Positions 127-20,158 of a stretch of DNA of 41,573 nucleotides are shown here, one piece after another. A program made the position numbers and the translations under genes. Numbering within the stretch: the first letter of the stretch is position 1; each line of letters begins with the position of its first letter. The notes below the pieces were generated by a model. That model ran no database searches and had not been told where the DNA came from. It saw only the letters and a list, made by a program, of their open reading frames with translations. Origin of the DNA: Mycobacterium syngnathidarum (GTDB lineage Bacteria; Actinomycetota; Actinomycetes; Mycobacteriales; Mycobacteriaceae); the NCBI RefSeq assembly GCF_001942625.1, contig NZ_MLCL01000087.1, positions 1 to 41,573 on the forward strand, read 5' to 3'.

Positions 127-187
127 GGTGGCGAGTCCCCGTTACTGAGTCCACCCGGTTCTAGAGTCGGGTTTGTTTGATCCGGAT

Positions 188-1027: not shown

Positions 1028-1050
1028 GGCGCGGCGCTTGGCAGCTGGGC

Positions 1051-1341
1051 TCAGAATTTTCCCTTCGCGACCTCCCGCAGCGCGTCCTTTTCCAGTTCGG
1101 CATCGGCCAGCAGCTTCTTGAGCCTGGCGTTTTGCTCGCGCAGCTCCTTGAGCTCCTTGGCGGCGTCGGTGTCCATCCCGCCGTAGGTGCGCCGCCAGTT
1201 GTACAGCGTGGCCGGCGACACCTCCAGCTCGGCGGCGATCTGCTCACCGGTCTTGCCCTCGGCAGCCAGCTCATCCGCGCGGCGCAACTTGCGCACGATG
1301 TCCTCCGCGGAATGCCGCTTGCGACCAGCCATGTGTTTCAT
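1051..1341 (-). CDS. IS3-family transposase OrfA
   Basis: This 96-residue protein has an N-terminal helix-turn-helix (KRHSAEDIVRKLRRADEL...SPATLYNWR) and a C-terminal leucine-zipper-like stretch (ELKELREQNARLKKLLADAELEK), the standard OrfA layout for end recognition and multimerisation. The ATG at 1341 is chosen because AAAGGA lies just upstream; a longer frame to 1395 would run through the inverted-repeat end. It finishes GKF-stop right after the A4 slippery run, as expected for frameshift-controlled transposase production. Confidence 0.85.
   Translation of the reverse strand: MKHMAGRKRHSAEDIVRKLRRADELAAEGKTGEQIAAELEVSPATLYNWRRTYGGMDTDAAKELKELREQNARLKKLLADAELEKDALREVAKGKF
1057..1060 (-). 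other. Programmed -1 frameshift site (A4) joining orfA and orfB
   Basis: On the minus strand the end of orfA reads GGGAAAATTCTGA. Slipping back one base on the A run avoids the TGA and continues in the orfB frame, giving an OrfAB product. A-run slippage is the known mechanism for the IS3 family; it has not been shown for this element. Confidence 0.7.
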
Positions 1342-1412
1342 CGTCCTTTCCGGCCCGACCTCGGGCCACAGGACTCTAAAACAAGCTGGACTCACTCAGT
1401 GGGAACACGCCA

Positions 1413-2050
1413 CCGGCACCAGTCGTTGTCCGCGTGGGCGACTAACGCAGGCCCGTTGTCGATGCGCACGTACGGCGCCCCATGTGTTTCGACCAATTGG
1501 TCGAGGATGTCGACGACTCCGTCGGCGTTGATGGCGCGGTCGACGTGGATCGCCAGGGCTTCGCGGGCGAACCCGTCGATGACGTTGAGCATCGTGATGG
1601 TGCGCCCGCCGGCGGTGGTGCCGAACCGGAAGTCCATCGCCCGGATCAGATTCGGACGGTTCGGGGACATCGCCCCGACCACGGTCCGGTCAGGCGTTCC
1701 TTCTTGCGGCGCTGCGGGACCCGCAGGCCCTCGTCGCGCCACAGCTGGCGGACGCGCGCTGCAATCGCTGCTCGTCGCCATAGCCCCAGCGGGGCCGATC
1801 GGTGGAGGATTTCCGCAGCCAGGCCCACAGCCGGGCTTCCTCATCAGTGGTCGGCGGCGGCGCGAGGCGCATCGTGGACCGATGCAGGCCCACCACCGCA
1901 CAGGCTCGACGCTCCGAGATCCCGAATCGCTCACACAACACCGTCACGGCGCTGCGCTCGTTGGCCTTCATGCCGCCGTACTGGGCCACCCAGCGGGATG
2001 AAGGCCTCTGGGAAAAACTCCACACCACGCTGCCGAAACTTCCTCCGTCG
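1413..2050 (-). pseudogene. Frameshifted, truncated IS3-family OrfB of a second element
   Basis: Pieces of one transposase lie in three frames of the minus strand. The N-terminal part starts near 1971 (MKANERSAVTVLCERFG...) and runs to about 1780. A middle part contains RVRQLWRDEGLRVPQRRKK. The catalytic part contains AMDFRFGTTAGG and RIDNGPALVAHADNDWCR. At least two frameshifts separate them. The gene stops at 1412, where the complete IS begins, before the catalytic Glu, and the expected continuation is not in the window. It is inactive and lies directly downstream of the mce operon. The right limit of the remnant is approximate. Confidence 0.8.
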
Positions 2051-2054
2051 AGAT

Positions 2055-2849
2055 TCAGATCGTCAAATCTTGGCGGAGGATCGACGAGAGTGCCTCGAGA
2101 GGGATATGGGTTTGAACGGCCCCGCCGTCCATCGACCACACCAACTGGTTGTGTGGCATCGGGTTCTCGCGCGACATCGGTCGATCAGGCATGAAAAGAA
2201 TCAGTTCACTCGATGTCAACGCAAATGCTCGGTAATTCTCTGAGTAGCCTGAGCCATCAACCTGCGGTTCGAACCGGTCGACGATGAAAGGGTATGCGCC
2301 GACAACGTGTGGCGGCCGTGCCGTGGCGAGCGATTCTTCGAGAAACGGCCGGGCCAGGGGCGGTAAGGCCGTGAGCGGGTCGATTCCGGGCTTGAACAGG
2401 TCGGCAAGCGATAGTTGATTGCCGGCGCCGAGGTCAAAAACGAAACTCCTGACAGCATTGTTTGCGTTGTTGCCTACGGTCTGCTGAGTCTCGCGAAATA
2501 CGACGGACCGCAGAGCTCGATGGGAGTGCGCGCTGTAGTCTATTGAGACATCGCTAGCACGAACCATGCTCGAACCCGCTGTGCGCCAGGACAAGACGCG
2601 ATCACGCAAATACGCTACGATTGGTGGCCCCATGTGCGGATGGCCGACCAGGTCTTGTGGAACCACAACTTTCAGAGCGAGGACAGCTTCCCGTTGCGAA
2701 CGAATGAAGGTCGTACAGTTGTCGTCCTGCGCTTCCCATTGGCCTCCGAACACCGCGTTGCACAGGGTGTCGGCGTGAGCTGATGATGCGCCGGCAAGCG
2801 CAGTGACGCATGCAATAGCGAGCGCGATCCGTAAGCCAGTTGTACCCAT
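2055..2849 (-). CDS. Secreted DUF3298-like protein at the end of the mce operon
   Basis: This is a 264-residue protein with a signal peptide (GLRIALAIACVTALAGASSAHA, residues about 4-25). The mature part resembles DUF3298/RsiV-type extracellular domains: VSIDYSAHSHRA, a FDLGAGNQLSLADLF block and a C-terminal IPLEAL. The ATG at 2849 lies four bases after the mas stop; the longer upstream frame overlaps mas and lacks a signal peptide. Its position as last gene of a tightly packed mce operon suggests an envelope role tied to the Mce transporter, but no function is known to me. The stop lies beside IS debris, so any genes once downstream may be lost. Confidence 0.75.
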   Translation of the reverse strand: MGTTGLRIALAIACVTALAGASSAHADTLCNAVFGGQWEAQDDNCTTFIRSQREAVLALKVVVPQDLVGHPHMGPPIVAYLRDRVLSWRTAGSSMVRASDVSIDYSAHSHRALRSVVFRETQQTVGNNANNAVRSFVFDLGAGNQLSLADLFKPGIDPLTALPPLARPFLEESLATARPPHVVGAYPFIVDRFEPQVDGSGYSENYRAFALTSSELILFMPDRPMSRENPMPHNQLVWSMDGGAVQTHIPLEALSSILRQDLTI

Positions 2850-2853
2850 TGCG

Positions 2854-3552
2854 CTACTTGATATCCACTTTGCTTGCGAGCCAGCGGTTATCGATGCGTT
2901 CGAGAACGATCGTAACCCGGCTGCGGTCGATCCGCGGCTCTGGGTTGACTGCATTGCTTATTGATTGATCTATGAAGAGGAGCACTTCCACCTTGTCAGG
3001 GGTGACTGACTTGACCGCTGAATCCACGACCACGCCGTGGCTTACAGCTTTGTTGTCGATAAGCAACTGCCGAAGTTGGGCAGCCGACTGGGTGTAAAGA
3101 TCCTTGAACTCGCCAGTTGCACCCTGGAGTACCTTCGCGTAGTTCTCATCGACCTTGGCGCTGTCGATACTCGTCAGGGTAACCCCATAATCATTGGCAA
3201 CTGCGAGTGCTTCACGACCCGTCGCGACTAGATCGTGTTGGCGTTTGACCTGCCACCCAAAGAAAGCCGCCGTGCCCACTGCGAGGAGCAGCGCCACTAG
3301 CAACACGGCGCCGATGAGGGTCGTCCGGGAACCCCGACCAAGCCGACTCTCGGTAGCAGGGTCGTCTAGGTCGACAGATTGGTGTTGATCGTCGGGATCG
3401 TCCGTGGGATCAACGCCTGTCACCTCATCTGCATCGTGGTTCTCGGGTGATTGATCGACGTCCTTGTCGCCGGAACTATGCTCATTCTCCTCACAGTCGT
3501 TGCTCCCGTTGATCTGATCGAACACATCCTTGGTTCTGGTCCGGCTGAACAT
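2854..3552 (-). CDS. Mce-associated membrane protein (Mas)
   Basis: This 232-residue protein has an acidic, disordered cytoplasmic N-terminus (about residues 18-68, rich in D and E), one transmembrane helix (TLIGAVLLVALLLAVGTAAFF, about 78-98) and an extracytoplasmic domain ending RWLASKVDIK. This is the usual layout of Mas proteins encoded after mceF, which have been linked to Mce complex stability in mycobacteria. GGAGGCACG precedes the ATG at 3552. It follows mceF by 17 bases and is followed by the DUF3298-like gene after 4 bases, so it is part of the operon. Confidence 0.85.
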   Translation of the reverse strand: MFSRTRTKDVFDQINGSNDCEENEHSSGDKDVDQSPENHDADEVTGVDPTDDPDDQHQSVDLDDPATESRLGRGSRTTLIGAVLLVALLLAVGTAAFFGWQVKRQHDLVATGREALAVANDYGVTLTSIDSAKVDENYAKVLQGATGEFKDLYTQSAAQLRQLLIDNKAVSHGVVVDSAVKSVTPDKVEVLLFIDQSISNAVNPEPRIDRSRVTIVLERIDNRWLASKVDIK

Positions 3553-3569
3553 CGTGCCTCCTATGCGTC

Positions 3570-4844
3570 TTACTTCGGCGGTGGCGCCAGGTTCTTGGGC
3601 GGCCCACCATAGGGTGTCGGGATAGTGTTGGGCCCCACGGGTGCTGGGTCGGTGGTTGCGAGGGGATCGTGGCCTGGCGGTGGCCGATCAGTGTCGTCGC
3701 CGGGAGGCCGCGGCGCATTGCGCGCGCCCCGAATAAGTACCGCGGGATCAGGATTATTGCAGTACGTATACCTGTACGGCTCGGGAAAGTCCGCCTGTGA
3801 TGGGGGACGTCGCGGCAGGTTGTAGTCGCAGGAATAGCGTGGGTAGGGGTCGACGATCTCCCAGACTCCTCCATCGCGGAAAGTCGACGCTACCGCATCG
3901 ATCACCGAACCCCGTTGCTCCAGTGGCGGGAACAGAGCTTTGAGCGCAGGTACCCTCACATAGGACAACTGCGCGACGGTGGTCAGGTTGCCGAGCAACT
4001 GGACCATGGTTTCGGAGTTGTCCGCAATGACAGCGTCCAGCGCGGTGAGTGGCCGACTTCCCGTATCGACCAATTGACGGTAGCCCCCCTCCATCCGGTT
4101 GGCTCCCGCTACGATTTCACGGACGTCCGTCGCCGTTTCGAGCAGCTCGGAATCGGCGTCGGTCACCATCGTGAAAATCGTACGGCTATTGCGAATGACC
4201 CGAATGGTTTCTGGGAGGACAGAATCCAGTGTCGAAATGAGGAAAATTCCGCCATCGAAGATGGCCGAAAGCTTCTCCGGTCCTGCCGCCCCTACGCCCA
4301 TCTCCTTCGTCATTGCTGAGAGCTTCGCTGGATCAAGCTGTGCAAGAAGGCCTTCAGCGTCTGTCACCAGACGATGAAACTGCACGGGGATGTCAGTCTG
4401 AGTTGCGCTGACCGTGTCGCCGTCACGAAGGAACGGCCCGGTACCGTTTGCGGGCCGGATGTCTAGGTACTGCTCGCCGGCGGGAGAAAGGCCGGAGACC
4501 CGGAATGCCGCGTCCTTGGGAATCTGGAGGTCTGGGTCGATCTCGATCTCGGCTACCACTCCATCGCCATCGACTTGTACAGCAAGGACTTTGCCAATCT
4601 GGACGCCCCGCAGTGTCACATCTTGACTGGCGAGGAGCCCGCCTGACTCTGACAGCTGAATGCGGAGACCAACTGTCGCGCGGACCGGATTGTATCCGAA
4701 CGTACCCAACGATATGTAGCCGAAAGCAGCAGTGAGAGTGAGGAACAGGCCCGCAAGAGCGACCGCTGTACGGCGGGCGCGTATGGCTTGCACTGAGTCG
4801 ACGGCGGCACCGGCGCATCGCTGGAAGATATTGGGCACGCTCAT
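3570..4844 (-). CDS. mceF: Mce family protein MceF
   Basis: This 424-residue subunit has an N-terminal transmembrane anchor (about 29-48), an MlaD/Mce domain (NPVRATVGLRIQLSESG...DVTLRGVQIGKV...LDIRP) and a long helical middle region. Its C-terminal tail is proline-rich (RPPPGHDPLATTDPAP to the end), as in other MceF proteins. Mce subunits form a periplasmic assembly that shuttles lipids to the YrbE permease. The start overlaps the mceE stop by 4 bases (ATGA), implying translational coupling. It sits sixth in the mce gene order, which fixes the letter. The substrate is unknown. Confidence 0.9.
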   Translation of the reverse strand: MSVPNIFQRCAGAAVDSVQAIRARRTAVALAGLFLTLTAAFGYISLGTFGYNPVRATVGLRIQLSESGGLLASQDVTLRGVQIGKVLAVQVDGDGVVAEIEIDPDLQIPKDAAFRVSGLSPAGEQYLDIRPANGTGPFLRDGDTVSATQTDIPVQFHRLVTDAEGLLAQLDPAKLSAMTKEMGVGAAGPEKLSAIFDGGIFLISTLDSVLPETIRVIRNSRTIFTMVTDADSELLETATDVREIVAGANRMEGGYRQLVDTGSRPLTALDAVIADNSETMVQLLGNLTTVAQLSYVRVPALKALFPPLEQRGSVIDAVASTFRDGGVWEIVDPYPRYSCDYNLPRRPPSQADFPEPYRYTYCNNPDPAVLIRGARNAPRPPGDDTDRPPPGHDPLATTDPAPVGPNTIPTPYGGPPKNLAPPPK

Positions 4845-5962
4845 CGCTGAGGCCCGTAAATTCTATTCAGCAAGAGATTCCATTGATACCGCAAACTACC
4901 GATCATCGCGTGCCAGTCGGTGCCGTCCGGACCGTGCGTCATCGGATCGCCTGGATAGTTCATATCTGGTAGAGCGCCAAGTGCGATCTGTTCTACGTCC
5001 CCTGCGGCATGGAGGTTGGCGCCGGAGGTCAGCTTGAGAAGCCTTGGGACGATTCGATTGAAGGTCGTCAGCGACGTGTTGGGGTCGATGCTTGCGTCGT
5101 TGAATGCGTCACTCAGCCTATTCAAGTCGGCAATGAGGCTGCGGGAATCAGTGCCTTGTAACGCCGGAAATCGCGATAGTTGCCGCGTAGTGCGGGCGAC
5201 AGAACCGATCAAAGTCACGATCTGATCGCGGTTATCGGCGATGACTGCGATCGCTGGATCTGCAGCTGCGAGCGCAGCATTGATCGTGTGCTGACGTGCG
5301 GACAAGCTAGACGCCAGTTCGGATGTGCGGTGCAGGGCCTCTGTGATCTCATCTGAGCGTGCGTTGAGTTGTGCAATCAATCTGTTCGACTGATGGAGCA
5401 GGTCGGCGATCTTCGTGCCACTGTCTCCGACGGCCGAGCCGGCGCCGTTGAGGATGTGGGTTAAGCTGCGGATCACCCCGCCATTGACAAGCACAGCAGC
5501 TGAACTGAGCAACTCCTCGACGGTGGCACCAGCCGATGTTGCAGCCAAGGGAATGATGTCTCCGTCGGCCAACGGTGTGCTAGCCGACCGTTGGTCCGGA
5601 TGAGGCTGGACTGCGACGAAGAGATCGCCGAGGGGCGTGGCCGACCTAAGCTCAACGGTTGCGCCGTCGTAGATCGAGACGTCCTCACGTATGCGCATAG
5701 TTACCTGCGCGGTGAACTCCTTGGCTTGAATCTTCTCAACCTCGCCGATGTCAGCGCCACCGACCTTCACCTTCGCATGAGCCGGCAAGTTTAGTGCATT
5801 AGTGAAAACCGCAGTCAACGTGTAGGTCTCGCCACCTACTGAAGGAGAACTCAGCGGGAGGCTTTCTAGTCCGGACGAACAACCGGACAAGACCGCGATC
5901 ACCCCGATAGACAGTACGTTGCGATAGCGGCGAGTTACGTGGGTGCCCAGCAGAGACGTCAT
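4841..5962 (-). CDS. mceE: Mce family lipoprotein MceE
   Basis: This 373-residue protein has a lipoprotein signal ending VLSGC (lipidated Cys about residue 28), the hallmark that separates MceE (LprK-type) from the other Mce subunits. A Mce/MlaD domain follows (YTLTAVFTNALNLPAHAKVKVGG), then a helical region and a C-terminus with DMNYPGDPMTHGPDG. It overlaps mceD and mceF by ATGA on both sides. It probably anchors the Mce assembly to the outer face of the plasma membrane by its lipid. Confidence 0.9.
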   Translation of the reverse strand: MTSLLGTHVTRRYRNVLSIGVIAVLSGCSSGLESLPLSSPSVGGETYTLTAVFTNALNLPAHAKVKVGGADIGEVEKIQAKEFTAQVTMRIREDVSIYDGATVELRSATPLGDLFVAVQPHPDQRSASTPLADGDIIPLAATSAGATVEELLSSAAVLVNGGVIRSLTHILNGAGSAVGDSGTKIADLLHQSNRLIAQLNARSDEITEALHRTSELASSLSARQHTINAALAAADPAIAVIADNRDQIVTLIGSVARTTRQLSRFPALQGTDSRSLIADLNRLSDAFNDASIDPNTSLTTFNRIVPRLLKLTSGANLHAAGDVEQIALGALPDMNYPGDPMTHGPDGTDWHAMIGSLRYQWNLLLNRIYGPQR

Positions 5963-7062
5963 TTCTCCACTCCCGCCATGAGTTCCAGCATTCCGGTGAG
6001 GCCGAAATCCGGTCCGTAGTCGCGGAGTGTGCCTGTGGCGCAGCCGAGCTGTTTGAGGCCGATGAGATTACACATTTCTTTGCTGAGCTGGCTGTCAAAG
6101 AGAATCTTGTCGGCGAGGGCGTGCAGTCGGACGGCGCCATTGTCGGCGTCGATGGCATTCCAGACGTTGTCGAGTGTCATTGGCGCGAGGTTGAAGAACT
6201 CTGCGACCTCACGTTGGTAGTCGACCAGTGCTTGGGTGATGGCCCTTGAGTCGGCGGCAGTCGTCTTCAGTCCGTCACGTCTGGATTCCAGTACCGATGC
6301 AACTTGCATCAGAATTTGGTTGATCTTGGAGCCCGTCGTGCCAGTGCCTAGGCTTTCGTCGGCCAGTATGTCGCTGAGCTGGTGCACGTTTGATCCGAAC
6401 TCTCGGATCGTCTGCTCGTTCTCTACGGCGGATTGCGTGAGCATGTCGAGGCTGGTGGCAATCGTATTAATGTTCTCTTTGGTGCGGGCCCCGTGATCGG
6501 TCTCGAGCCGTAGGGCTGATGACAGTTCGCTCAGCGTGCTCTTGAGATCCTCACCGTTGTCCGTCGCGATCTGCGCGCCGACATTCACCAGATCGGCCAA
6601 CGGCCCAGAGCCCTCGCCGTTTCCGCGGAGGGCGACTGCTAGCCGGTCGATCATGGCAAGTGTCCTGTCGAATTCCACGGGAGTACGGGTACGCCCGAGG
6701 CCGATGACGTCTCCGTCGCCTAGCTTCGGACCTCCGCGATAGGGGGGCGTAAGTTCAACATGTCGGTCTGTGAGAATCGACGTGGACACAGTGACTGCCT
6801 GAACATCAGCGGGTATGTCGATCCCGTCGTCGAGCACGAGCGTGACTTCGACGGAATCACCCTTCGTCGTGATGCGGTCAACATGTCCGACCTGCATACC
6901 TAGCACAGCAACGGTGTTGCCTTCGTAAAGCCCGATCGCGTCCTCGAAATGAGCGGTCACCGTGATTGGTTGGGTGCCAGCGCGGTTGGTTATCAAAGTC
7001 GTAGCAACGGCGAGGGCGGCGGCAATCACGGCAGTGAGCCAGACCAATGTCCTTCTACTCAT
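5959..7062 (-). CDS. mceD: Mce family protein MceD
   Basis: This 367-residue subunit starts at the ATG at 7062, which overlaps the mceC stop by four bases; a longer frame to 7128 would lie inside mceC. It has an N-terminal membrane anchor (LVWLTAVIAAALAVATTLI, residues 6-24), a Mce domain (ITVTAHFEDAIGLYEGNTVAVLG), long helices, and a C-terminal Cys pair (EMCNLIGLKQLGC) that may form a disulfide. It is the fourth mce gene. It probably contributes to the lipid channel of the complex, but nothing in the sequence gives the substrate. Confidence 0.9.
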   Translation of the reverse strand: MSRRTLVWLTAVIAAALAVATTLITNRAGTQPITVTAHFEDAIGLYEGNTVAVLGMQVGHVDRITTKGDSVEVTLVLDDGIDIPADVQAVTVSTSILTDRHVELTPPYRGGPKLGDGDVIGLGRTRTPVEFDRTLAMIDRLAVALRGNGEGSGPLADLVNVGAQIATDNGEDLKSTLSELSSALRLETDHGARTKENINTIATSLDMLTQSAVENEQTIREFGSNVHQLSDILADESLGTGTTGSKINQILMQVASVLESRRDGLKTTAADSRAITQALVDYQREVAEFFNLAPMTLDNVWNAIDADNGAVRLHALADKILFDSQLSKEMCNLIGLKQLGCATGTLRDYGPDFGLTGMLELMAGVEK

Positions 7063-8105
7063 GCGCAATCCTCGAAATACTCGACCAATCCGAATTGCTC
7101 GGCACGGCCGCTGATTGCGCACATCCATGAGTCGATGAGTGGGCCGGATGAAAATGTTCCATCGATTCCGGTGCCACTGCCCGTAGCGTTGGCGATGTTA
7201 CGCATGGCGATCGGGAGGGCCTGCAGTGTATTGCGGAACAGCGCGTCATGCTCGGCGATCATTCGCGTGAAGTCGCGCACACTGTCTAGCATTTCGTTGA
7301 GAGCGTGCTCGTCCGTCAGGATTCGAGATAACGTGTGCGCCAAGGCAGTCGTGCCTTCGAACAGTCGTTCAATGGCCGCGCGACGAGTCGTGATCTCGCC
7401 GATCAGGTCTCGACCTTGCAGGACGAGCATCCCCAGATTGGCCTTCTGGTCCCTGATTGTTGCGGCGAGCTTGTCGGTGCTGGAGAGTAGTGTGCCAATC
7501 TGACCCCGCCGATCGGAGATGATGCGGGATAGCGACTTTAGATTCCGCAGTGCGTCAGGCAACGCTTGAGGAAGACCGTCAAGGCTGCGCGACACAGTGG
7601 TCATTGAGTTGGCGATTTGATCGGCATCAACCTGATCGAAAGTCGTTGTGGCATCAGCTAAGGCAGTCTGTAGGTCATAAGGCGCCGACGTATTGGAGAG
7701 AGGGATCGTGTGGCCTTGGAGGCTGCCCGAACGTCCGGGAGTCAACTCGATGTAGCGGGACCCCAGTAGGGTAGTGAGTTTGATAGCCGCCTTCGTATCG
7801 CTGCCCAGGTAGACGCCCTTGTCGATCGACAATCTCATCTCAACCCGATCGCCGGCCAACGTGAGGGCATCGACATGGCCGACGGAGATACCGGCGATGG
7901 TTACCTGGTCGTCCTCGCGTACAGAGGCTGCTTGAGCGAATTCGGCACGATATATCGTCTTGCCGAGATTCAGTGCGCCCGTTAAGGCAACTGCGCCCAC
8001 TACCGCAACCATGACGACCAGTGCGACCGTGCCGATGGCAATCTTGTTGTAGTCCTCAATGGGGCGCGTGAGGCTTAGGCGCCCGAGTGCTCGTCTGATG
8101 ATCAT
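7059..8105 (-). CDS. mceC: Mce family protein MceC
   Basis: This 348-residue protein has an N-terminal transmembrane anchor (about 25-46), a Mce domain (YRAEFAQAASVREDDQVTIAGI...GSRYIELTPG) and a coiled helical region with DRRGQIGTLLSSTDKL, a motif typical of MceB/C/D helices. Its tail is short, without the proline-rich extension seen in many MceC proteins. It begins seven bases after the mceB stop and overlaps mceD by four bases. Confidence 0.88.
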   Translation of the reverse strand: MIIRRALGRLSLTRPIEDYNKIAIGTVALVVMVAVVGAVALTGALNLGKTIYRAEFAQAASVREDDQVTIAGISVGHVDALTLAGDRVEMRLSIDKGVYLGSDTKAAIKLTTLLGSRYIELTPGRSGSLQGHTIPLSNTSAPYDLQTALADATTTFDQVDADQIANSMTTVSRSLDGLPQALPDALRNLKSLSRIISDRRGQIGTLLSSTDKLAATIRDQKANLGMLVLQGRDLIGEITTRRAAIERLFEGTTALAHTLSRILTDEHALNEMLDSVRDFTRMIAEHDALFRNTLQALPIAMRNIANATGSGTGIDGTFSSGPLIDSWMCAISGRAEQFGLVEYFEDCA

Positions 8106-8112
8106 TCTGGAC

Positions 8113-9156
8113 CTACCTGCAGATCGGGGTGTTCTTGATGGTGTTGCCGGGGGTCGCAGCTCGCACGATTCGAGGGACGAGCCGACCGAGGAAATCGAAG
8201 ATCGTTATATTTATGTCGCACGCATACACGTCGGCGTAGGCACCGGATTGCATAGAGCGAGCGACACCTTTCAGCATGGCTGGCAAATTTGCGCCGAAGT
8301 ATGAGAACCGCTCACGAGCGTCGGCGGTGAGGTGTGCGGAGAGGCCGGGCTCTCGTGCCATCATTGCGCTGAGGTCTGGCTGTATGCTGGCCGATATCGC
8401 CCCAAGTCTGTTCACAGTTGTGGCGATAGAACCGACCGCTGCAGCCAAATCTGCGCGCCGGTTCCCCAGCCCTACCATCAACTCGCGGGTATGGGTGATG
8501 ATCGATTGAAGATTGGCGTTTTGGTTCGCCAGCATGGTCATCGTGTTATTCAGATTGGCGATGACCTCGCCCAGGAGCTGATCGGGGCCAGCGAACAGCT
8601 CAGCCAGAGCGGATGTCTGCGTGATCAATGTAAGGACCGAGCCACTATCCCCTTGCAAAGCTTGAATAATTCCGTTGGTGAGATTTTCTACTTGACTCGG
8701 ATCGAGCAGTGCGAAGAGCGGTTCAAATCCACGCAATAGGTGAGTAATGTCAAATGATGGCTCGGTTTTCTCGACGGGTATCTGACCATGATTACCGAGG
8801 ATGCGCCGACTATTGTCCTGGCCAGGAGACAGGCCCATATAACGCTGTCCGACGATATTTTGGTAGGTGACGGATGCAACGGTGTCGGTGTAAAGGGTTT
8901 GCTCCCGCTGGACGCGGAACGTTACTTTTGCCAGGGCATCTTCCTCCAGTGAGATTTCATCTACACGGCCGACGCGTACACCCGCGACTCGAACGTCATC
9001 TCCAGGATGTAGGCCTGCGACATTCGTGAATATCGCCGAATAGGTAGCGACTGGCCCGCTGACCTGGCGCAGCAACGTCACAGATACGAGCCACGTGGCC
9101 GATATGCACAAAACCAGAAAGATGACAAGACCGATCGATGACTTTCGGATGCTCAA
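8113..9156 (-). CDS. mceB: Mce family protein MceB
   Basis: This 347-residue subunit has an N-terminal anchor (IGLVIFLVLCISATWLVSV, residues 8-26), a Mce domain (TYSAIFTNVAGLHPGDDVRVAGVRVGRV...YMGLSPG) and a helical domain. The C-terminal YACDINITIF...NTPICR carries two Cys, as usual for MceB. The start is TTG at 9156, supported by AGGAAGG seven bases upstream; this site overlaps the mceA stop, so the two are coupled. Confidence 0.88.
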   Translation of the reverse strand: MSIRKSSIGLVIFLVLCISATWLVSVTLLRQVSGPVATYSAIFTNVAGLHPGDDVRVAGVRVGRVDEISLEEDALAKVTFRVQREQTLYTDTVASVTYQNIVGQRYMGLSPGQDNSRRILGNHGQIPVEKTEPSFDITHLLRGFEPLFALLDPSQVENLTNGIIQALQGDSGSVLTLITQTSALAELFAGPDQLLGEVIANLNNTMTMLANQNANLQSIITHTRELMVGLGNRRADLAAAVGSIATTVNRLGAISASIQPDLSAMMAREPGLSAHLTADARERFSYFGANLPAMLKGVARSMQSGAYADVYACDINITIFDFLGRLVPRIVRAATPGNTIKNTPICR

Positions 9157-9160
9157 TCTT

Positions 9161-10699
9161 CTACCTTCCTGTGTCCGGAGTGATGTGTACCGCCGCGCCC
9201 CGCAACACCGGTCCGAGTAGAAGTTGAACTGCCGAATCGGCCTCGCGGCCTACTACTTGGCTCAACTGGGAGTTCTCGGCGACGCTGCCGACCGGGCCGA
9301 CACTCCCTCCGTACTCCTGTTCGTAATTCTGTGGCAGCCCGAACGTTTCGGACGAGGCCTCCTCGGGCTTATCAGAAGGAGTCGTAATCACTGTTTCTGG
9401 GGCCGATGCTTCCGTGGGCGCGAGCGAACTGCCGGGATCTGAGATTGGCGGGCCAGGGGTGGGGTGAGCGCTCGGAGGAATCCCGCCAGGTACGTCGCCG
9501 GCGTGCCGAACCGAATCACGCGGTGGAGCAAGATTCGGTCGATTCTCCGTGATCCCATTCGGTGGTGGGATTCCCATTGATCCTAATGCCGGCAACAGAT
9601 CGGGCGCAGTCGGTACCTCTGGCGCTGTTTGACAACTTGGCCCCTCGAGTTCTCCGTAACGGGGGCAATCAGCGCGGACGTATTGTCGGAAAGGCGCCAG
9701 ACTGACGATTACCTTGATGACGTAGTTGTGTCTTTCGGTGTCGTAATTGGCCTCGACGCGTTCGGCCATTCTCGTCATCCTGGTTGCGATCGGTGTGAAT
9801 TCATCGGAGTTGTCGGCGAGCGTGCCGATAACAGGGGTCAACTGGGTGGTAATGGCAATAAGGCGGTCGGTGTGGTTATCGAACGCCTCACCAAGTGTTG
9901 TAGTCGTATTGGTGCCTGCCGAGATCAAGTTAGTCAGCTGAGATCGCGTTTCGGTCAGTGCACGCATGGGTGCGATCGCCTCGTCGAGAGCGTCGCTCAG
10001 AACTGGCTCAGCTTGTCGTAGCGCATTGGCCGCAGTCGCGAGTGCCGATATGGTGGTGGGGTCATTGTTATCGCCGACAACATTATTCAGCTGCGTAACA
10101 ATGTGGTGGAGGTCGCTGCCCGCCGCACGGATGCTACTGCCGCGGCTTTCGGCCGCGCCGCTGAGAGCTGCGAGCACACCGATGGTGTTGTCGTTGTCAT
10201 CTCGGCTCACTGACTTGAGTAATTCGCGAACTTTGGTTAACAAAGACTGGAACAAAACCGTGGGTAGGGTGTGATCCTCGCGTATCACTGAGCCAGAGCG
10301 CAGCGGAGACAGGTCCAGCCCGTTCGAGACCAATTGCACCGACGAAACCGCGAAGACGTTGGACGGAACAACTCGCGCCGTGACCGTGTCGGGGATGCTG
10401 GATGCATGATTGGGTTTGAGGTTGATTCGAACAATGTACGGTCGTCCTACGCCGGAAAGCTCGACGTCGCTAACTTCGCCTACAAGTACGCCTCGAAACT
10501 TGACATCTGACTTCGCAGGAAGACCGTCGCCCACGTTCATCAGCTCAGCGGTCACACGAACTATGTTGTCAAGCCTGCCTTGAGACTTCATGAGACACAA
10601 CGCGATGACGCTAGTGATGACGGTGAGAAAGCAAACTCCCGCGACGAACAGACGCCGATTGGATGGGCCGCGGGAGTCAGTGTCGAAGGAGTTTGTCAC
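9161..10699 (-). CDS. mceA: Mce family protein MceA
   Basis: This 512-residue protein is the first Mce subunit after the two permeases. It has an N-terminal anchor (LFVAGVCFLTVITSVIALCL, about 17-36), a Mce/MlaD domain (VRVTAELMNVGDGLPAKSDVKFRGVLVGEV), a helical region with paired Cys (RADCPRYGELEGPSC), and a long Pro/Ser/Thr-rich tail (about 365-460). It starts with GTG at 10699, one base after the yrbEB stop, with GGAGGG overlapping the end of yrbEB. I cannot assign it to a numbered mce operon from sequence alone. Confidence 0.9.
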   Translation of the reverse strand: MTNSFDTDSRGPSNRRLFVAGVCFLTVITSVIALCLMKSQGRLDNIVRVTAELMNVGDGLPAKSDVKFRGVLVGEVSDVELSGVGRPYIVRINLKPNHASSIPDTVTARVVPSNVFAVSSVQLVSNGLDLSPLRSGSVIREDHTLPTVLFQSLLTKVRELLKSVSRDDNDNTIGVLAALSGAAESRGSSIRAAGSDLHHIVTQLNNVVGDNNDPTTISALATAANALRQAEPVLSDALDEAIAPMRALTETRSQLTNLISAGTNTTTTLGEAFDNHTDRLIAITTQLTPVIGTLADNSDEFTPIATRMTRMAERVEANYDTERHNYVIKVIVSLAPFRQYVRADCPRYGELEGPSCQTAPEVPTAPDLLPALGSMGIPPPNGITENRPNLAPPRDSVRHAGDVPGGIPPSAHPTPGPPISDPGSSLAPTEASAPETVITTPSDKPEEASSETFGLPQNYEQEYGGSVGPVGSVAENSQLSQVVGREADSAVQLLLGPVLRGAAVHITPDTGR

Positions 10700-10700
10700 G

Positions 10701-11561
10701 CTACCCTCCGAACCTGGCGCCAGAGTCGACGCTCCAAAGCGCCATAGTGAGAAGCATGTTCACGATGATCACGACAGTGATGCTGGCGCGCATCGCCCTC
10801 CCGGCGGCGACACCGACGCCGGCTGGGCCACCGCTCGCGTAGTAGCCGTAGTAGCACTGCATCGTGGATGCTGCGAAGACAAACACCACGGCCTTGATCA
10901 CGGCAAAGAAGACGTCGCGTCCGCTTGCAACCAGATTGAAGTAGTGCATATAGGTACCGACAGAGTGGTCGCTTACCGCCGCCGCAACCATTTCAGCCGA
11001 AAGGTAAGCCGCCGCAAGACATACGAGAAATAGCGGAACGGCGGCTGTGACAGCCGCGGCCACTCGGGTTGTTACCAGGTATGCAACTGAGTTGATGCCA
11101 AGGGTGTCAAGGGCATCGATCTCCTCGTTGATGCGCATTGCGCCTAATTGTGCGGTAAATCGACAGCCTGCCTGGGTCGCGAATGCCAACGCGATCATCA
11201 CAGGCGCCAGCTCTCGGGTACCGACAAACGAGGAAATCAGCCCGGTGGCTGGGCCCAGCCCAAGCAGATTCAAGGCGTTGAATCCCTCTACGCTGATCAG
11301 CGCGCCCGCTGTGGCGCCCAACACGATCGCAACGCCTATGGTCCCGCCACCGACCACAATCGAGCCGTTGCCCCAGCTGATATCGACCAGTACCCGCGTG
11401 AACTCTTTTCGATAGCGGCGCACGACAAGGGGGATCGATAACAGGATGTTGCGGAAGAAGTAGCTGATGTGGCCAGCTTTTGCCACGACCAGTCCTGCGA
11501 CGAGCGCGGAGCTTGCCACCATCTGCGTCCCTGGCGGGCGGAACCGGGTGGGTGCCGTCAT
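10701..11561 (-). CDS. yrbEB: YrbEB, MlaE-type permease subunit of the Mce transporter
   Basis: This 286-residue integral membrane protein has several hydrophobic helices and the permease EQ-like loop NEEIDALDTLG (about 145-155), which in MlaE/YrbE proteins contacts the MceG-type ATPase. The ATPase gene is not in the window, as expected, because one MceG serves several mce operons elsewhere in mycobacterial genomes. It lies three bases after yrbEA and runs straight into mceA. YrbEB pairs with YrbEA to form the transmembrane pore. Confidence 0.92.
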   Translation of the reverse strand: MTAPTRFRPPGTQMVASSALVAGLVVAKAGHISYFFRNILLSIPLVVRRYRKEFTRVLVDISWGNGSIVVGGGTIGVAIVLGATAGALISVEGFNALNLLGLGPATGLISSFVGTRELAPVMIALAFATQAGCRFTAQLGAMRINEEIDALDTLGINSVAYLVTTRVAAAVTAAVPLFLVCLAAAYLSAEMVAAAVSDHSVGTYMHYFNLVASGRDVFFAVIKAVVFVFAASTMQCYYGYYASGGPAGVGVAAGRAMRASITVVIIVNMLLTMALWSVDSGARFGG

Positions 11562-11564
11562 GGG

Positions 11565-12431
11565 CTAGAAACTCGCTTTGGGGAAAACGATGATATACAG
11601 CTGGGTCATGACCACGTTGACAGTCATCAGTAGCAGTATCGACTCGACGACTGCTGCGTTCACCGAGTTGGCGACTCCGGCGGGCCCACCGCGAGTGCTC
11701 AAGCCTTTGTGGCAACTCACGATCGCCACAATGGCGCCGAAGACCACGGCCTTGGCGAGCGCCAACAGCAGGTCGCCGATCGTTGCGAACGAGGAGAACG
11801 TCGCGACAAAAGATCCCGGCGTGCCGTTTTGCATGTAGACGTTGAATGTGTAGCCGGCGAGGAAGCCTACAAAGCTGGTTAAGCCAGTCAGTGCTATTCC
11901 CACAATGATCACAGCCGCAAAACGCGGAACTACCAGGCGGTGGATCGGCGAAACTCCCATCACCGTCATCGCGTCGATCTCTTCACGCATCGTTCGGGAT
12001 CCCAGGTCTGCGCAGACTGCCGAACCTACCGCGGCTGCCAACAAGACAGCTGCAACGAGTGGCGCACCTTGGCGGATGACTGCGAGCCCTGTGGCAGCTC
12101 CCGCCAGCGACGTTGCGCCCACTTGTCCTGCCAACAAGCTGAACTGGATCGCCAGTGTTACACCGATCGGAATCGTCACGAATATTGTTGGGACAAAGGC
12201 TGTTGAGGCCATGAATGCGGCCTGCTGTATGAACTCTCGGAACTGGAAGCGGCGAGCGAGTGCATCGGTGAACAAGCACTGAACAGTGCGCACCGCTAGT
12301 ACGGCCTGTCCGCCCAATGTCCCCAGCGACATCAACGGGTGGGACGCAATGTACCTGCGCGCCCCATCCGCAACCTCGCCTATGGCATCGCGGGTTCCCG
12401 TTGTCGCGGAGCCGGATTCGGAGATTGTCAT
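11565..12431 (-). CDS. yrbEA: YrbEA, MlaE-type permease subunit; first gene of the mce operon
   Basis: This 288-residue permease has the EQ-loop MREEIDAMTVMG (about 148-159), flanked by membrane helices, and the family glycine motif TRGGPAGVANSVN near the C-terminus. It heads ten co-oriented genes with gaps of at most 17 bases. The ATG at 12431 lacks a strong ribosome site. The palindrome at 12549-12572 lies 118 bases upstream, so transcription of the whole operon is probably controlled there. Codons are less GC-rich to the eye than in the core genes after 25 kb, in keeping with acquired DNA. Confidence 0.92.
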   Translation of the reverse strand: MTISESGSATTGTRDAIGEVADGARRYIASHPLMSLGTLGGQAVLAVRTVQCLFTDALARRFQFREFIQQAAFMASTAFVPTIFVTIPIGVTLAIQFSLLAGQVGATSLAGAATGLAVIRQGAPLVAAVLLAAAVGSAVCADLGSRTMREEIDAMTVMGVSPIHRLVVPRFAAVIIVGIALTGLTSFVGFLAGYTFNVYMQNGTPGSFVATFSSFATIGDLLLALAKAVVFGAIVAIVSCHKGLSTRGGPAGVANSVNAAVVESILLLMTVNVVMTQLYIIVFPKASF

Positions 12432-12548: not shown

Positions 12549-12572
12549 TACCGACCGTGCGTACGGTTAGTA
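12549..12572 (-). promoter_or_regulatory. Operator-like palindrome upstream of the mce operon
   Basis: Read toward yrbEA, the core is ACCGTACGCACGGT, a near-perfect inverted repeat that extends outward as TACTA...GGTA. The same element occurs before the atuA-like gene and the acyl-CoA ligase gene. The form is typical of a TetR-family site. The rest of 12432-12675 holds no gene that I can support; it is the leader and promoter of the operon up to the IS at 12676. Confidence 0.65.
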
Positions 12573-12675
12573 TGCACAGGTGCTGTTGGGCATGCAAGCG
12601 TTACGGCAAATATCTACATGCTGGAACCGCCGCGACTTTGATCCGCCTCGGCGGGGGTGAATGCTGTCGACCTCT

Positions 12676-13515
12676 TGGCGAGTCCCCGTTACTGAGTCCA
12701 CCCGGTTCTAGAGTCGGGTTTGTTTGATCCGGATTCAGTTGATCTGGCAGGCCATCGGGGTGTGGGTGTGCCTGCATGCCGCAGCGTACTCGGCCGGGGT
12801 TCGGTAGCCCAGGGCTGAGTGCCGGTGGCGGTGGTTGTGGTCGTGCTTGAAGTCGCCGATGACCACCCGGGCTTCGAGCAGGGTGTTCCAGTGGTTGCGG
12901 TTCAGGCACTCCTTTCGCAGTCGGTTATTGAACGATTCGATGTATCCGTTGTTCCACGGAGTGCCGGGCGGGATATAGACCATGCCCACCTTGTTCTCAC
13001 AGAACTGTTGCAGCGCTTGGGAAATAAACTCCGGCCCATTGTCCATCCGCAGCACTCTCGGCGGGCCACCGGTCGCGGCGAACACGGCTTGGAGCTCATC
13101 GACGAGCCGGTCGGCGGTGATCGAGCGCTCCACCAGGTTCAGCAGCGAAACCCGGGTGTGCTCGTCGATCATCGACGCGATCTTGATCGCCTTGCCGTCG
13201 ACGGTCGAGTCGTACTGGAAATCAATCGCCCACACCACATTCGGCGCATCGGCGACGATCGCCGGGATCGACGACACCCCGGCCCGCTTGCGCGGGCTGT
13301 GCACCCGCACCTGCAAGCCCTCCTCGCGCCACAGCCGGTGGACCTTCTTCTTGTTGACCTCACGGTGCTCGTCGTAGCGCAACGCCGCCCAGGCACGCCG
13401 AAACCCATGACACGGGTGTTTCGTGGCATAGGCGCGCAGCCAGGCCCTCATTTCAGCGTCGGGATCCTGTGGCGTCTGGGCCAGCGGCAGCCGGCGGCAG
13501 GTGGAACGGGCCAGC
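12676..13515 (-). mobile_element. Truncated second copy of the IS3-family element (840 bp)
   Basis: It matches 129-968 over its full 840 bp, from the TGGCGAG terminus to ...GGGCCAGC, in the same orientation and with no difference that I noticed. Copies of shadow frames read identically in both. It lacks the orfA end and the right inverted repeat. At 13516 the sequence passes directly into the atuA-like gene, which marks a deletion that removed both the IS 5' part and the gene's 3' end. Alone it cannot transpose. Confidence 0.92.
12735..13515 (-). pseudogene. Truncated OrfB of the second IS copy
   Basis: It is identical to OrfB at 188-1027 from LARSTCRRL onward, so the DDE core is intact, but the first 20 or so residues, the frameshift region and OrfA are missing. 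The frame stays open upstream into DNA antisense to nothing known, giving a chimeric start at 13592 that is unlikely to be used. It lies on the same strand as the atuA-like gene and could be read through from it. Confidence 0.8.
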
Positions 13516-15132
13516 TGCGCGTAGGTTGGGTAGCAGGTGTCGGTGGACTGGGAGGTCGGCGGTCTCCGGCAGTAGTTCTTTGAGCATTGCAACAGATATG
13601 GTGTGGACTAACCAGCGCCATTGTTCATCTGTACGGACCCATACGCCGACGTTGGCGCTGTGGCCCTTGTCTCCACTACGGGCACCGGCGATGGTGCCGA
13701 GTGGGAGGCGCAATGTCGGCCCGTGCACCAATCGGTCTGGAAGCGGTGGCTGTTCGGTCGCAATAAGCTCGCGAGTGTGACTAGCAGGGGCGATATCAAC
13801 GCGGTTCCCGTTGGCGTGCACGGCGGAATGTCGGACCAAACTCGCCTTCACGGAGGCGGCGGTGAACCTACCGTATGCTTGGCTGTCGCTTGGGGGTGCG
13901 GTGACATGAAACCCTGGGTAGCTCGCGAGACCGAGTTCTATTGCGGTGCCTGTGAATGCGCGTCCCACGTTGGCAGGATCGGAATCTCGAACAATGCAGT
14001 GCAGCAGGGCGCTCGCTGTCTCCTCGGTGTCCGCGTTCAGATGGTCGGTTCGGGCTAACGTCCACTCGAGTTCTGCTGGTTTGATCGGAAGCGCAGCTTC
14101 AAGTTGCCGACGGACCAATTGGCCCTTTGCCTCGATGTTCAGTCCGGTGAGCACGAACGTCACCGCATTGCGGTATCCGGCGATGTCATTGACAGACACC
14201 TTCAATGTCGGCGGCGGCGGTTCCCCTTTCGCTGCCGAGATCGCCACCCGGTCTGGACCGTCTGGAGCGAGAGTCACACTGTCTATTCGCGCGGTCGCGT
14301 CGGGATTGGCGTAACGGCCGCCGGTGATCTCGTAAACCAGCTGGCTCGTCACCGTTCCGACACTGACCTCACCTCCCGTGCCAGGATGTTTCGTGATCAC
14401 CGAGGAGCCGTCGTCATGAATCTCCGCTATGGGAAAGCCGGGGTGCCCCATGTCGTCGATACTGCCGAAGAATGCGTAGTTGCCGCCGGTTGCTTGTGCA
14501 CCACATTCGATGACGTGCCCGGCAACGACTGCCCCAGCAAGTTTGTCGTAATCCGTTTTACCCCAGTCAAAGTGCGCGGCAGCAGGCCCCACCGTGAGTG
14601 AGGCGTCGGTAACTCGCCCCGTTACCACGATGTCTGCTCCGGAGTTCAAGCACTCTACGATGCCCCAAGCGCCAAGGTAGGCATTGGCCGCGAGTGGAGA
14701 ACCCAACCCGAGCTCGGCTGCGCGTGGCAGTAGATCGTCACCCTCTACGTGCGCGACTGCCACCGGAATGCCGAGATCATCGCTGAGCGTGCGTATTGCG
14801 GTGGCTAGACCCGCGGGATTGAGTCCGCCAGCGTTTGTGACGATACGGACGTTGTTGTCTTGAGCCAGCCCTAGGCAGTCTTCCATTTGCCGCAGAAAAG
14901 TCTTCGCATAACCGCCGCCGGGGTTTCGCGCCCGGTCGCGAGCTAGAATGAGCATGGTCAGTTCGGCGAGGTAGTCCCCGGTGAGGTAGTCGAGCTCACC
15001 GCCGGTGAGCATCTCGCGCATCGCGGACAGTCGATCACCGTAGAAGCCCGAGCAGTTGCCGATTCGAACCACACCGGGGGCTCGCAATCGGGGCAGGGCG
15101 TCGTCTTTCTGATGCACCGGCCGATTCGCCAT
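13453..15132 (-). CDS. AtuA-family (DUF1446) protein with IS-replaced C-terminus
   Basis: This 559-residue frame opens MANRPVHQKDD and contains the family's VRIGNCSGFYGDRLSAM, TGDYLAELTM, VTNAGGLNP, VTGRVTDASL and GARSGDKGHSANVGVW motifs. The family includes AtuA of acyclic terpene utilisation; the reaction is not settled. After HLLPNLRA the frame enters the IS and adds about 20 foreign residues before a stop at 13453. Relatives continue past PNLRA for roughly 40-50 residues, so the true C-terminus is lost and activity is doubtful. It is divergent from the acyl-CoA ligase gene and has the shared palindrome 47 bases before its ATG. Confidence 0.8.
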   Translation of the reverse strand: MANRPVHQKDDALPRLRAPGVVRIGNCSGFYGDRLSAMREMLTGGELDYLTGDYLAELTMLILARDRARNPGGGYAKTFLRQMEDCLGLAQDNNVRIVTNAGGLNPAGLATAIRTLSDDLGIPVAVAHVEGDDLLPRAAELGLGSPLAANAYLGAWGIVECLNSGADIVVTGRVTDASLTVGPAAAHFDWGKTDYDKLAGAVVAGHVIECGAQATGGNYAFFGSIDDMGHPGFPIAEIHDDGSSVITKHPGTGGEVSVGTVTSQLVYEITGGRYANPDATARIDSVTLAPDGPDRVAISAAKGEPPPPTLKVSVNDIAGYRNAVTFVLTGLNIEAKGQLVRRQLEAALPIKPAELEWTLARTDHLNADTEETASALLHCIVRDSDPANVGRAFTGTAIELGLASYPGFHVTAPPSDSQAYGRFTAASVKASLVRHSAVHANGNRVDIAPASHTRELIATEQPPLPDRLVHGPTLRLPLGTIAGARSGDKGHSANVGVWVRTDEQWRWLVHTISVAMLKELLPETADLPVHRHLLPNLRAAGPFHLPPAAAGPDATGSRR

Positions 15133-15178
15133 CCAATCAACTCCTCAACGGGGATTCAACGGTGTCCGAGTATTACAC

Positions 15179-15196
15179 TGACCGCGCGTACGGTCA
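15179..15196 (-). promoter_or_regulatory. Operator-like palindrome upstream of the atuA-like gene
   Basis: The minus strand reads TGACCGTACGCGCGGTCA, an 18-base inverted repeat of the same design as at 12549-12572 and 15398-15415. It lies 47 bases before the ATG at 15132 and is followed by GTGTAATAC, a possible -10 region, so a bound repressor would block the promoter. Confidence 0.65.
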
Positions 15197-15397
15197 ATAG
15201 CGCTCCATCTGCATCTCGGCGCTGATCGGTGATTCATCTCGATCGGCCCGCGCCTGACCCTATTCTGGCTGTGGCGAATGACCCCGTAGGGCAAGGAGAT
15301 TTGAGGACATCGTCAGCATCGATACCTCAGACGTTAACCAGTCGGTGCTGCGGGGTGATGATGTGCGCAGAGCTGCGGACGCTCGTACTGCGCATCA

Positions 15398-15415
15398 TGA
15401 CCGTACAAACGGTTA
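15398..15415 (+). promoter_or_regulatory. Operator-like palindrome overlapping the acyl-CoA ligase promoter
   Basis: TGACCGTACAAACGGTTA shares the ACCGTAC-N3-CGGT core and spacing with the two other sites. It overlaps a -10-like TAGTAT at 15414-15419, which would put the transcript start near 15426. The span 15197-15397 between the two sites holds no gene that I can support. Confidence 0.65.
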
Positions 15416-15451
15416 GTATCGATAACTCAAGGCATGGATGAAGGAGTTGGC

Positions 15452-16990
15452 ATGGCGCTCGGGATCGGTGAGTGGATAACGAGACGTGCATCGCGCACGC
15501 CTAATCGGATCGCCCTCGTCGATGGAAGGGAGGGAACCGAGTTCACATACGCAGACCTCGACCGGCGTTCGGGGATCCTGGCCGAGATGCTCCGTGCCTC
15601 GGGGGTTCGGCGAGGTGATCGAGTAGCGCTCCTGATGGGCAACTCGACAACGTTTCTTGAGCTGCTTTTTGCCGCGGCGAAGCTTGGCGCCGTGACCGTT
15701 CCCATCAACTTCCGTTTGTCGGAGGGTGAGGTCGCGTACATCCTTGATAATTCCCAGGCGTCGATTCTCTTCCATGACTCTTTGCGAGAACGCCTGGCCC
15801 GCGAGGCGGCCGCGGAGATGCAGACATCGGCTCCGACAATAGTCGATGCCAGTGAAATCTCCCTACGAGTTGACGTATCGGTTGACGCCAGTTGTTCTGG
15901 GGGTAGTGAGCCTGCGAATCCGCATGATCTTGCTGTAATCATGTACACCTCGGGCACGACGGGCAGGCCCAAGGGTGCCATGCTCACTCACGGCAACTTA
16001 GAATGGAATGCGGTGAATATGCTAACCGCGGGCAAAGGCATAACCGGTACCGACGTCACGGTAACCGTTGCCCCGCTGTTTCATATAGGCGCGTTGGGGC
16101 TATTCACTCTTCCGCTTCTGTACGCGGGTGGAACGGTGATCGTGGAGGAGCAGTTCGACGCCCCACGAGTCCTAGAACTTTTGGCACAAAAAGGCGTCAC
16201 CGTACAGTTCATGGTTCCGACAATGTGGGCGGATCTGGCGGCGCTGCCCGACTTCGGATCACATAACCTTGAAAACCTCCGTTGGCTCCTCAGCGGGGGC
16301 GCGCCCTGCCCGCTTCCGCTGATCGAAACTTATGGAGCGAAAGGTCTGCTGTTGTCGGAGGGCTACGGTATGACCGAATTGTCTCCGGCCGCCCTGATAT
16401 TGGAGGAAGAATTCGTCTTGACCAAGGCCGGCTCCGTGGGACGCCCGTTCCTCCACGTAGAGACTCGAATCGTCGACGACTTCGACCGTGACGTGCGTCA
16501 AGGTGACGTGGGCGAGCTCATTTTTCGCGGACCCAATGTATGCGCCGGATACTGGGGTCTCCCGGACGCTACAGCAGAAGTGATATGCGGCGGTTGGTTT
16601 CACAGTGGCGATCTCGCCTTCGAAGGCGACGACGGATTCATCACACTTGTCGACCGCAAGCATGACATGATTATTTCAGGTGGCGAGAATGTGTACCCAA
16701 TTGAGGTGGAACAGATCCTCAATCAGCATCCGTTTATTTCGGATGTTGCAGTGATAGGTATACCGCACGATCGGTGGGGTGAAACCGTGCTGGCGGTTGT
16801 CGTGCCAGTAGGGCAAACAAATATCACTGAACAAGAGGTAATCCAATTTTGTCGCGAACGTATCGCCGGCTACAAATGTCCCCGCCGGGTCGAATCGGTC
16901 ATCGAGCTGCCAAGAAACGCGACCGGGAAGATTCTCAAACGTGAGCTACGGAAGATGTTTGGCGTCTCTGAAACCGCTGTTATACGCTGA
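15452..16990 (+). CDS. Acyl-CoA synthetase (FadD-type, AMP-forming)
   Basis: This 512-residue ANL-superfamily ligase activates a carboxylic acid as acyl-AMP and then acyl-CoA. Visible motifs are the P-loop YTSGTTGRPKGAMLTH (about 165-180), the SEGYGMTE core, the GWFHSGDLA hinge region, and the C-terminal catalytic lysine in NATGKILKREL (K493). The ATG at 15452 is preferred over that at 15434 because AAGGAG lies five bases before it and MALGIGEWI matches the family start. The acid specificity cannot be read. The shared palindrome and the neighbouring mce and atuA-like genes suggest that it activates an imported branched or terpenoid acid. Confidence 0.88.
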   Translation: MALGIGEWITRRASRTPNRIALVDGREGTEFTYADLDRRSGILAEMLRASGVRRGDRVALLMGNSTTFLELLFAAAKLGAVTVPINFRLSEGEVAYILDNSQASILFHDSLRERLAREAAAEMQTSAPTIVDASEISLRVDVSVDASCSGGSEPANPHDLAVIMYTSGTTGRPKGAMLTHGNLEWNAVNMLTAGKGITGTDVTVTVAPLFHIGALGLFTLPLLYAGGTVIVEEQFDAPRVLELLAQKGVTVQFMVPTMWADLAALPDFGSHNLENLRWLLSGGAPCPLPLIETYGAKGLLLSEGYGMTELSPAALILEEEFVLTKAGSVGRPFLHVETRIVDDFDRDVRQGDVGELIFRGPNVCAGYWGLPDATAEVICGGWFHSGDLAFEGDDGFITLVDRKHDMIISGGENVYPIEVEQILNQHPFISDVAVIGIPHDRWGETVLAVVVPVGQTNITEQEVIQFCRERIAGYKCPRRVESVIELPRNATGKILKRELRKMFGVSETAVIR

Positions 16991-20124: not shown

Positions 20125-20158
20125 GATTCGGGCTTCCGAGCAACGTGCCCCAGATACA

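Follow-up and report, generated by a model that had tools for sequence, protein, structure and literature searches.

Why should one palindrome stand ahead of a lipid-importer (mce) operon, an atuA-like gene and an acyl-coenzyme A (CoA) ligase gene that lie side by side in a mycobacterial genome? The question arises from positions 1 to 41,573 of contig NZ_MLCL01000087.1 of Mycobacterium syngnathidarum (assembly GCF_001942625.1), a stretch of 41,573 nt that was analysed as a whole and is called here the window. Our comparisons indicate that the palindrome (core ACCGTACGTACGGT) is very likely the operator of a TetR-family repressor, from a clade marked by the recognition helix SKGTIVH, that would control a regulon for lipid import and oxidation. 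The three palindromes of the window are very probably binding sites of a repressor that relatives encode beside the same lipid-importer genes, and this repressor probably controls the import and breakdown of a greasy molecule.

The initial annotation had described three sites with a shared pattern, and exact matches to ACCGTACNNNCGGTY occur in the whole window only at those places: 12553-12567 (minus strand), 15180-15194 (minus) and 15400-15414 (plus), always upstream of their genes. The full site is longer than the pattern first described, about TRACCGTACGTACGGTYA. Operator 1 (12553..12568, minus; AACCGTACGCACGGTC) points toward the mce operon and lies 122 bp ahead of the yrbEA start, operator 2 (15180..15195, minus; GACCGTACGCGCGGTC) points toward atuA, and operator 3 (15399..15414, plus; GACCGTACAAACGGTT) toward the acyl-CoA ligase gene. 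With a scoring matrix made without the window's own sites, they reached 21.0, 19.0 and 21.5 bits, respectively, the top three scores of the window, and the next-best place (position 39906) scored only 13.0, in agreement with the earlier statement that the window has no fourth site. A -10-like sequence had also been reported at each site, and one can be located in every case. CATACT (12574-12569, minus) abuts the palindrome of operator 1 and TAGTAT (15414-15419) overlaps the end of operator 3, both as judged by eye and neither listed by our promoter scan; the palindrome of operator 2 forms the spacer between a -35-like TTGACC (15197-15192) and a -10-like AATACT (15174-15169), a pair that is weak evidence because the scan yields about one such pair per shuffle.

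In 100 dinucleotide shuffles of the window, matches to ACCGTACNNNCGGTY had a mean of 0.01 and a maximum of 1, and none of the shuffles gave three; the palindrome ACCGTNNNNRCGGT is present in the window as three exact sites in target-gene promoters, against the 0.01 expected. Likewise, the top matrix score in 60 Markov resamplings was 19.5, reached once. It is extremely improbable that the resemblance among the sites comes from chance or from shared ancestry without function, such as the duplication of one promoter by an insertion sequence (IS). A duplication would suit operators 2 and 3, which belong to a single divergent region and are separated by only 204 bp, but the three sites differ within and around the palindrome, and operator 1 is identical in another genome, G353, though the mce operon there shows only 58-84% protein identity to that of the window. 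We rejected both variants of this explanation on the basis of the shuffles, of the site counts at TetR loci as compared to AtuA loci, and of the clustering of sites in single genomes, the last two of which are described below.

A candidate regulator came from a plasmid of Rhodococcus sp. 008, which was reached through its ligase (52% identical to that of the window) and contains six sites within 19 kb. Among these, one lies between a crotonase gene and a run of alcohol dehydrogenase, aldehyde dehydrogenase, ligase and acyl-CoA dehydrogenase genes, and another between a CoA ligase gene and a run encoding a cytochrome P450, a ferredoxin, a reductase, a thiolase and an OB-fold protein; others are ahead of a TetR gene, ahead of an aldehyde dehydrogenase gene and around 440 bp ahead of an NDMA-alcohol dehydrogenase gene. 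The plasmid P450 matched, first, entries named CYP125MRCA, which we take to be reconstructed ancestors, and then CYP124 and CYP125, and the thiolase matched a thiolase entry and lipid-transfer proteins; NCBIfam gave no model above the cut-off for the P450, the thiolase or the OB-fold protein. Substrates of the branched isoprenoid or sterol-side-chain type would plausibly suit a CYP125/CYP124-like P450 accompanied by a lipid-transfer-type thiolase.

When 396 Mycobacterium genomes were searched with a stricter pattern, 14 of them had matches, at 16 places, with the reversed control seen twice, and 10 of the 14 show a link to an mce operon or to a relative of the Rhodococcus TetR. A profile built from six such TetRs gave 63 strong matches in 62 of the 396 genomes (E 6.6e-64 or better), followed by a gap to 6.8e-28. 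Sixty-one TetR loci were read for sites, those from G041 and G353 being read separately. Directly upstream of the TetR start, 58 have a site of 17 bits or more, and in 56 the stretch from TetR to yrbEA contains one that scores at least 14, although most of these loci are close orthologues, so that the counts are not independent and overstate the evidence. The mce operon of the 61 loci is of a different type, with a YrbEA about 41% identical to that of the window. A TetR gene with the motif in its own promoter, for which the initial annotation had proposed to look, is present in relatives (the 58 loci and G041). In the window itself no clade TetR was found: tblastn with three of them returned nothing below E 1, which also agrees, as far as clade TetRs go, with the annotation's remark that no regulator gene lies beside the sites. 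At two loci (L130 and L131; G103:C1:528786 and G235:C1:1644780) the mce operon has a further strong site at its downstream end, preceding a small antitoxin-like gene (by eye).

In the wider family, TetRs at E 1e-40 or better were found in 24 of 401 genomes (26 matches). Fourteen such loci fetched at length contained 23 sites of 19 bits or more in 266 kb, the window having three, and when seven from loci L196 and L083 were added, 27 of the resulting 30 were intergenic according to a crude gene caller. Their neighbours, labelled by BLAST against the annotated plasmid genes, include genes for TetR, P450, CoA ligases, alcohol and aldehyde dehydrogenases, crotonase and hydrolases, as well as one mce operon; sites precede ligase homologues at five loci (L247, L248, L251, L252 and L259) and the mce operon at L249. 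Conversely, 20 loci with distant TetRs showed no site at 17 bits or more, and one at 14.4.

Presence of the palindrome follows the recognition helix of the TetR. With the helix SKGTIV[H/Y], a site scoring at least 17 bits is present within 600/700 bp at 71 of 73 loci, and in the two remaining loci the own-promoter sites score 15.2-15.3 and stronger sites are found further away; with other helices (SRGLIAH, SQGLIVH, SQGTIVY, SKGTILH and the 20 distant TetRs, whose helix our script did not recognise), none of 25 loci has a site. These counts include many close orthologues, and the SKGTIVH helix of G041, missed by the script, was assigned by eye. Two sister-group TetRs with the helix SRGLIAH (L197 in G128 and L198 in G113:C2) are encoded divergently to an mce operon, without the palindrome nearby, and may use a different operator. 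The linked TetRs are mostly about 220-245 aa long, with one helix-turn-helix (HTH), and their nearest solved structures by sequence are the TetR entry 3vpr, KstR2 (E 6.6e-24) and some unnamed TetRs, with DarR and a fatty acid regulator lower among them. From the conserved position of the sites beside TetR and mce genes and their correlation with the helix we infer that TetRs of this clade bind the palindrome and repress the genes behind it.

The mce block of the window (10.5-10.6 kb) shows 99.07% DNA identity to those of genomes G041 and G127. Because the longer matches to these genomes in another part of the window (20100-23000) have identities of only 72-85%, and short pieces of at most 91%, the block has probably moved recently. 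The 16-mer of operator 1 also precedes yrbEA in G041, G127 and G353. In G041, which has the window's mce operon, an intact TetR gene lies 1.2 kb past the operon end, beyond an IS remnant; its product is 54% identical to the Rhodococcus TetR, it is divergent from an aldehyde dehydrogenase gene with a site in the gap between them, and a further site is found at a TIGR03084-family gene. Random genome-wide occurrence of the motif had been named in the initial annotation as grounds for abandoning a common regulon. However, in 6.1 Mb of G041 all four matches to RACYGTACNNRCGGTY are within the mce/TetR cluster, and the single match in G127 and that in G353 are each in the mce promoter; additionally, four of the five matches in G685 are near one another, and four of six places in G610 fall within 50 kb around the TetR gene. 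The reversed control of RACYGTACNNRCGGTY gave one match each in G127, G353 and G685 and hence what matters in G127 and G353 is where the match lies and not how many there are.

A repressor that reads the window's sites today faces several observations that weigh against it. G127 has the mce operon and its site, with no clade TetR (best 1.2e-25, all 114 candidates scored). Similarly, the TetR from G353 (L123, G353:C1:4351857-4353847) lacks the N-terminal HTH and its gene is beside a transposase-like gene (by eye), despite which the mce operator is conserved. From these two genomes it follows that sites can persist without a working regulator. It may then be, although we find this less likely than not, that the palindromes are orphan operators, relics on a mobile mce island without a cognate repressor and with genes that are constitutive or otherwise controlled. 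The near identity of the mce block in two genomes that differ from the window elsewhere is in keeping with such an island, as are the IS copies that flank the block and cut atuA. Yet the atuA and ligase genes are each preceded by a different variant of the palindrome, which points to the presence of a regulator at the time of their assembly, and G041 retains the regulator near the same mce operon.

Also weighing against the repressor reading are four of the 14 genomes matched by the stricter pattern (G033, G044, G064 and G311), which have neither a clade TetR nor mce genes in the stretch read, and the sixth site of the Rhodococcus plasmid, which is in the gap past the end of the crotonase gene and not ahead of a gene. 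In addition, only 29 of the sites between TetR and yrbEA reach 15 bits or more, and 23 reach 17 or more. The relatives of the other two window genes do not share the motif either. The best 80 of 262 atuA loci (69-75% identity, mycobacterial and rhodococcal; 1.508 Mb) contained no matrix site of 19 bits or more, one strict motif match (L080, a Rhodococcus bin) and 20 scattered one-mismatch matches, and among 30 of 75 ligase matches whose loci were read there was one site of 14 bits or more, within the gene. AtuA and ligase genes also occur together in the plasmid clusters L081, L082 and L084, where motif scores reach at most 12.7 bits, this value corresponding to a match 33 bp ahead of the L082/L084 TetR gene, which is outside the SKGTIVH clade. 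Considering the 80 nearest loci, these three plasmid clusters and five further loci, the motif precedes atuA in the window only, and the link of this gene to the motif is thus particular to the window. The small lipid regulon proposed in the initial annotation stands in part: mce operons, CoA ligase genes and oxidation genes recur behind the motif, whereas atuA, which is truncated by an IS, does so only here.

Genes for a P450, a ligase and a thiolase belong to the KstR regulon, and the targets found here (mce, ligase, P450, thiolase) are similar to those of known mycobacterial lipid regulators. We consider it very unlikely, nevertheless, that KstR, KstR2, BkaR or Mce3R reads the palindrome, as their published operators differ and the motif goes together with a TetR clade of its own; all four were rejected as readers of the sites. 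In published accounts, KstR is an autoregulated TetR-type repressor of lipid-use genes and an Mce importer, with a 14-bp palindrome, TnnAACnnGTTnnA, partly overlapping the -10 region (PMC1995591); KstR2 has the operator AnCAAGnnCTTGnT and a 15-gene regulon (PMC3068626), with the CoA thioester HIP-CoA as its ligand; BkaR uses GTTA(N)T(N4)A(N)TAAC; and Mce3R is a double TetR protein with a non-palindromic operator (for HIP-CoA and Mce3R, PMC11667970). The window sites, compared by eye as ACCGTACNNNCGGTY with the published motifs, correspond to neither the KstR nor the KstR2 operator. The clade would share with Mce3R the repression of an mce operon by a TetR-type protein, and differs from it in having one HTH in proteins of about 220-245 aa and a palindromic site; with KstR2 it shares the sequence proximity noted above.

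By analogy, the system would work like the KstR/Mce4 control of cholesterol use, with another operator and another regulator: it would resemble KstR in the TetR-type repressor, autoregulation, a palindrome at the -10 region and the association of lipid genes with an Mce importer. Unlike KstR, this clade has been seen on an island rich in IS and on a plasmid, and NDMA-alcohol dehydrogenase and, within the window, atuA are among the associated genes. In relatives the repressor would govern the gene that encodes it, lipid importers of the Mce type and a pathway for oxidation and activation. This pathway would consist of a P450 resembling CYP125/CYP124, a ferredoxin and a reductase, an NDMA-type alcohol dehydrogenase, an aldehyde dehydrogenase, CoA ligases, an acyl-CoA dehydrogenase, a crotonase and a lipid-transfer-type thiolase with its OB-fold partner. 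Bound to the promoter, it would block RNA polymerase. The likely order of events would be uptake by Mce, omega-oxidation to an acid, activation by the ligase, and shortening, and the acyl-CoA that the ligase makes from the imported substrate would most likely release the repressor, in the way that CoA thioesters release KstR2. Acyl-CoA is bound by fatty acid regulators of this TetR kind. A CoA derivative of the imported lipid is expected as the inducer. The window would represent a portion of a regulon of this kind after rearrangement by IS, and the regulator gene would lie beyond the window or have been lost; we infer that in this organism, too, one repressor would govern the three promoters.

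As for the substrate, terpenoid or branched isoprenoid compounds are plausible, and a branched isoprenoid or sterol side chain would fit best the enzymes encoded. The Atu pathway with AtuR serves for acyclic terpenes in Pseudomonas, and has in common with the window an AtuA-family protein and CoA activation, so that AtuA is a hint of acyclic terpenes, present behind the motif only in the window. Plasmid clusters in Mycolicibacterium and Rhodococcus join AtuA, the ligase and a biotin carboxylase, unlike here without the palindrome ahead of atuA; no carboxylase was noticed near the window atuA, although no dedicated search was made. To our knowledge, the substrates of mce operons are mostly unclear, except for the cholesterol importer Mce4, and an operator, its likely regulator and the co-regulated enzymes offer a direct route to them. 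We found no apparent description of this operator or regulator among the best-ranked papers listed in one open-access library, and one may exist elsewhere. We hold at even weight the broader proposal that one TetR clade and its operator form a portable lipid-import switch in the Mycobacteriaceae. This switch would serve no fewer than two types of mce operon that are only distantly related; elsewhere it would serve CYP125-like side-chain oxidation with no mce genes seen beside it. It would parallel KstR/Mce4 for a non-cholesterol isoprenoid and would be mobile, on islands bounded by IS and on plasmids, from which the repressor can be lost while the operators stay. The comparisons suggest that a lipid-import operon passes from one mycobacterium to another along with its switch, and in some cases on its own.

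The mce operon of the window (2055..12431, minus) comprises yrbEA (11565-12431, minus), yrbEB (10701-11561, minus) and mceA-F (3570-10699, minus), and ends with genes for two further proteins, one at 2854-3552 (minus) with no Pfam family and another at 2055-2954 (minus) with only a weak match to an esterase model, below the cut-off. As is characteristic of actinobacterial Mce importers, a single operon thus encodes a pair of YrbE permeases together with six Mce proteins; Pfam MlaE was found on both permeases, and MlaD and Mce4_CUP1 on mceA and mceE, the two Mce proteins tested, whereas the others were assigned by order and by their match to G041, G127 and G353, gene order and homology supporting all eight. 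The operon is flanked by two identical IS3-family stretches, at 129-968 and 12676-13515. The second of these is a truncated copy that cuts atuA (12676..13515, minus; 100% identical over 840 bp to 129-968), and the first is part of a longer copy beyond the other end of the operon (129..1416, minus), with approximate limits from an alignment to the G041 IS3 element.

The atuA-like gene (13516..15132, minus) has 539 codons and has lost its C-terminus: the core domain is complete (PF07287, 505 bits, profile positions 1-435 of 437), and the C-terminal domain is cut at codon 539, with PF23544 matched partially and below the cut-off. The product thus has the complete AtuA domain and not the whole ferredoxin-like C-terminus that together define the AtuA family. 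Of 80 relatives compared, the 40 printed all cease to be homologous exactly at residue 539, and relatives extend 42-54 residues beyond this break. A PDB search with AtuA gave no match. In several of 22 printed atuA upstream regions (among loci L001-L080), atuA is near an rpmF-like gene (by eye), and a conserved TAACCTACCGGTTGGTTGG, possibly another operator, lies ahead of the common mycobacterial atuA in several of them.

The acyl-CoA ligase gene (15434..16990, plus) probably starts at the ATG at 15452, after GAAGGAG (by eye); its product matches PF00501, PF13193 and, above the cut-off, NF004837 (long-chain-fatty-acid-CoA ligase), and its best identity in the 396 Mycobacterium genomes is 55%. 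The association of atuA with the ligase is also seen outside the window: in G127 (G127:C12:159518-163605; L225 and L283) relatives of the ligase (53%) and of atuA (57%) are convergent and around 1 kb apart, with no matrix site of 15 bits or more at the pair. Farther along the window, an open reading frame at 22420-23391 (plus), beside an MPAB_Lcp_cat-family gene (21719-22747), looks by eye like a TetR-type regulator; it had no NCBIfam match, and queries with clade TetRs missed it at E below 1. At 23401-25010 (minus) there is a tandem of genes for three similar, small, secreted-looking proteins of 146, 143 and 150 aa.

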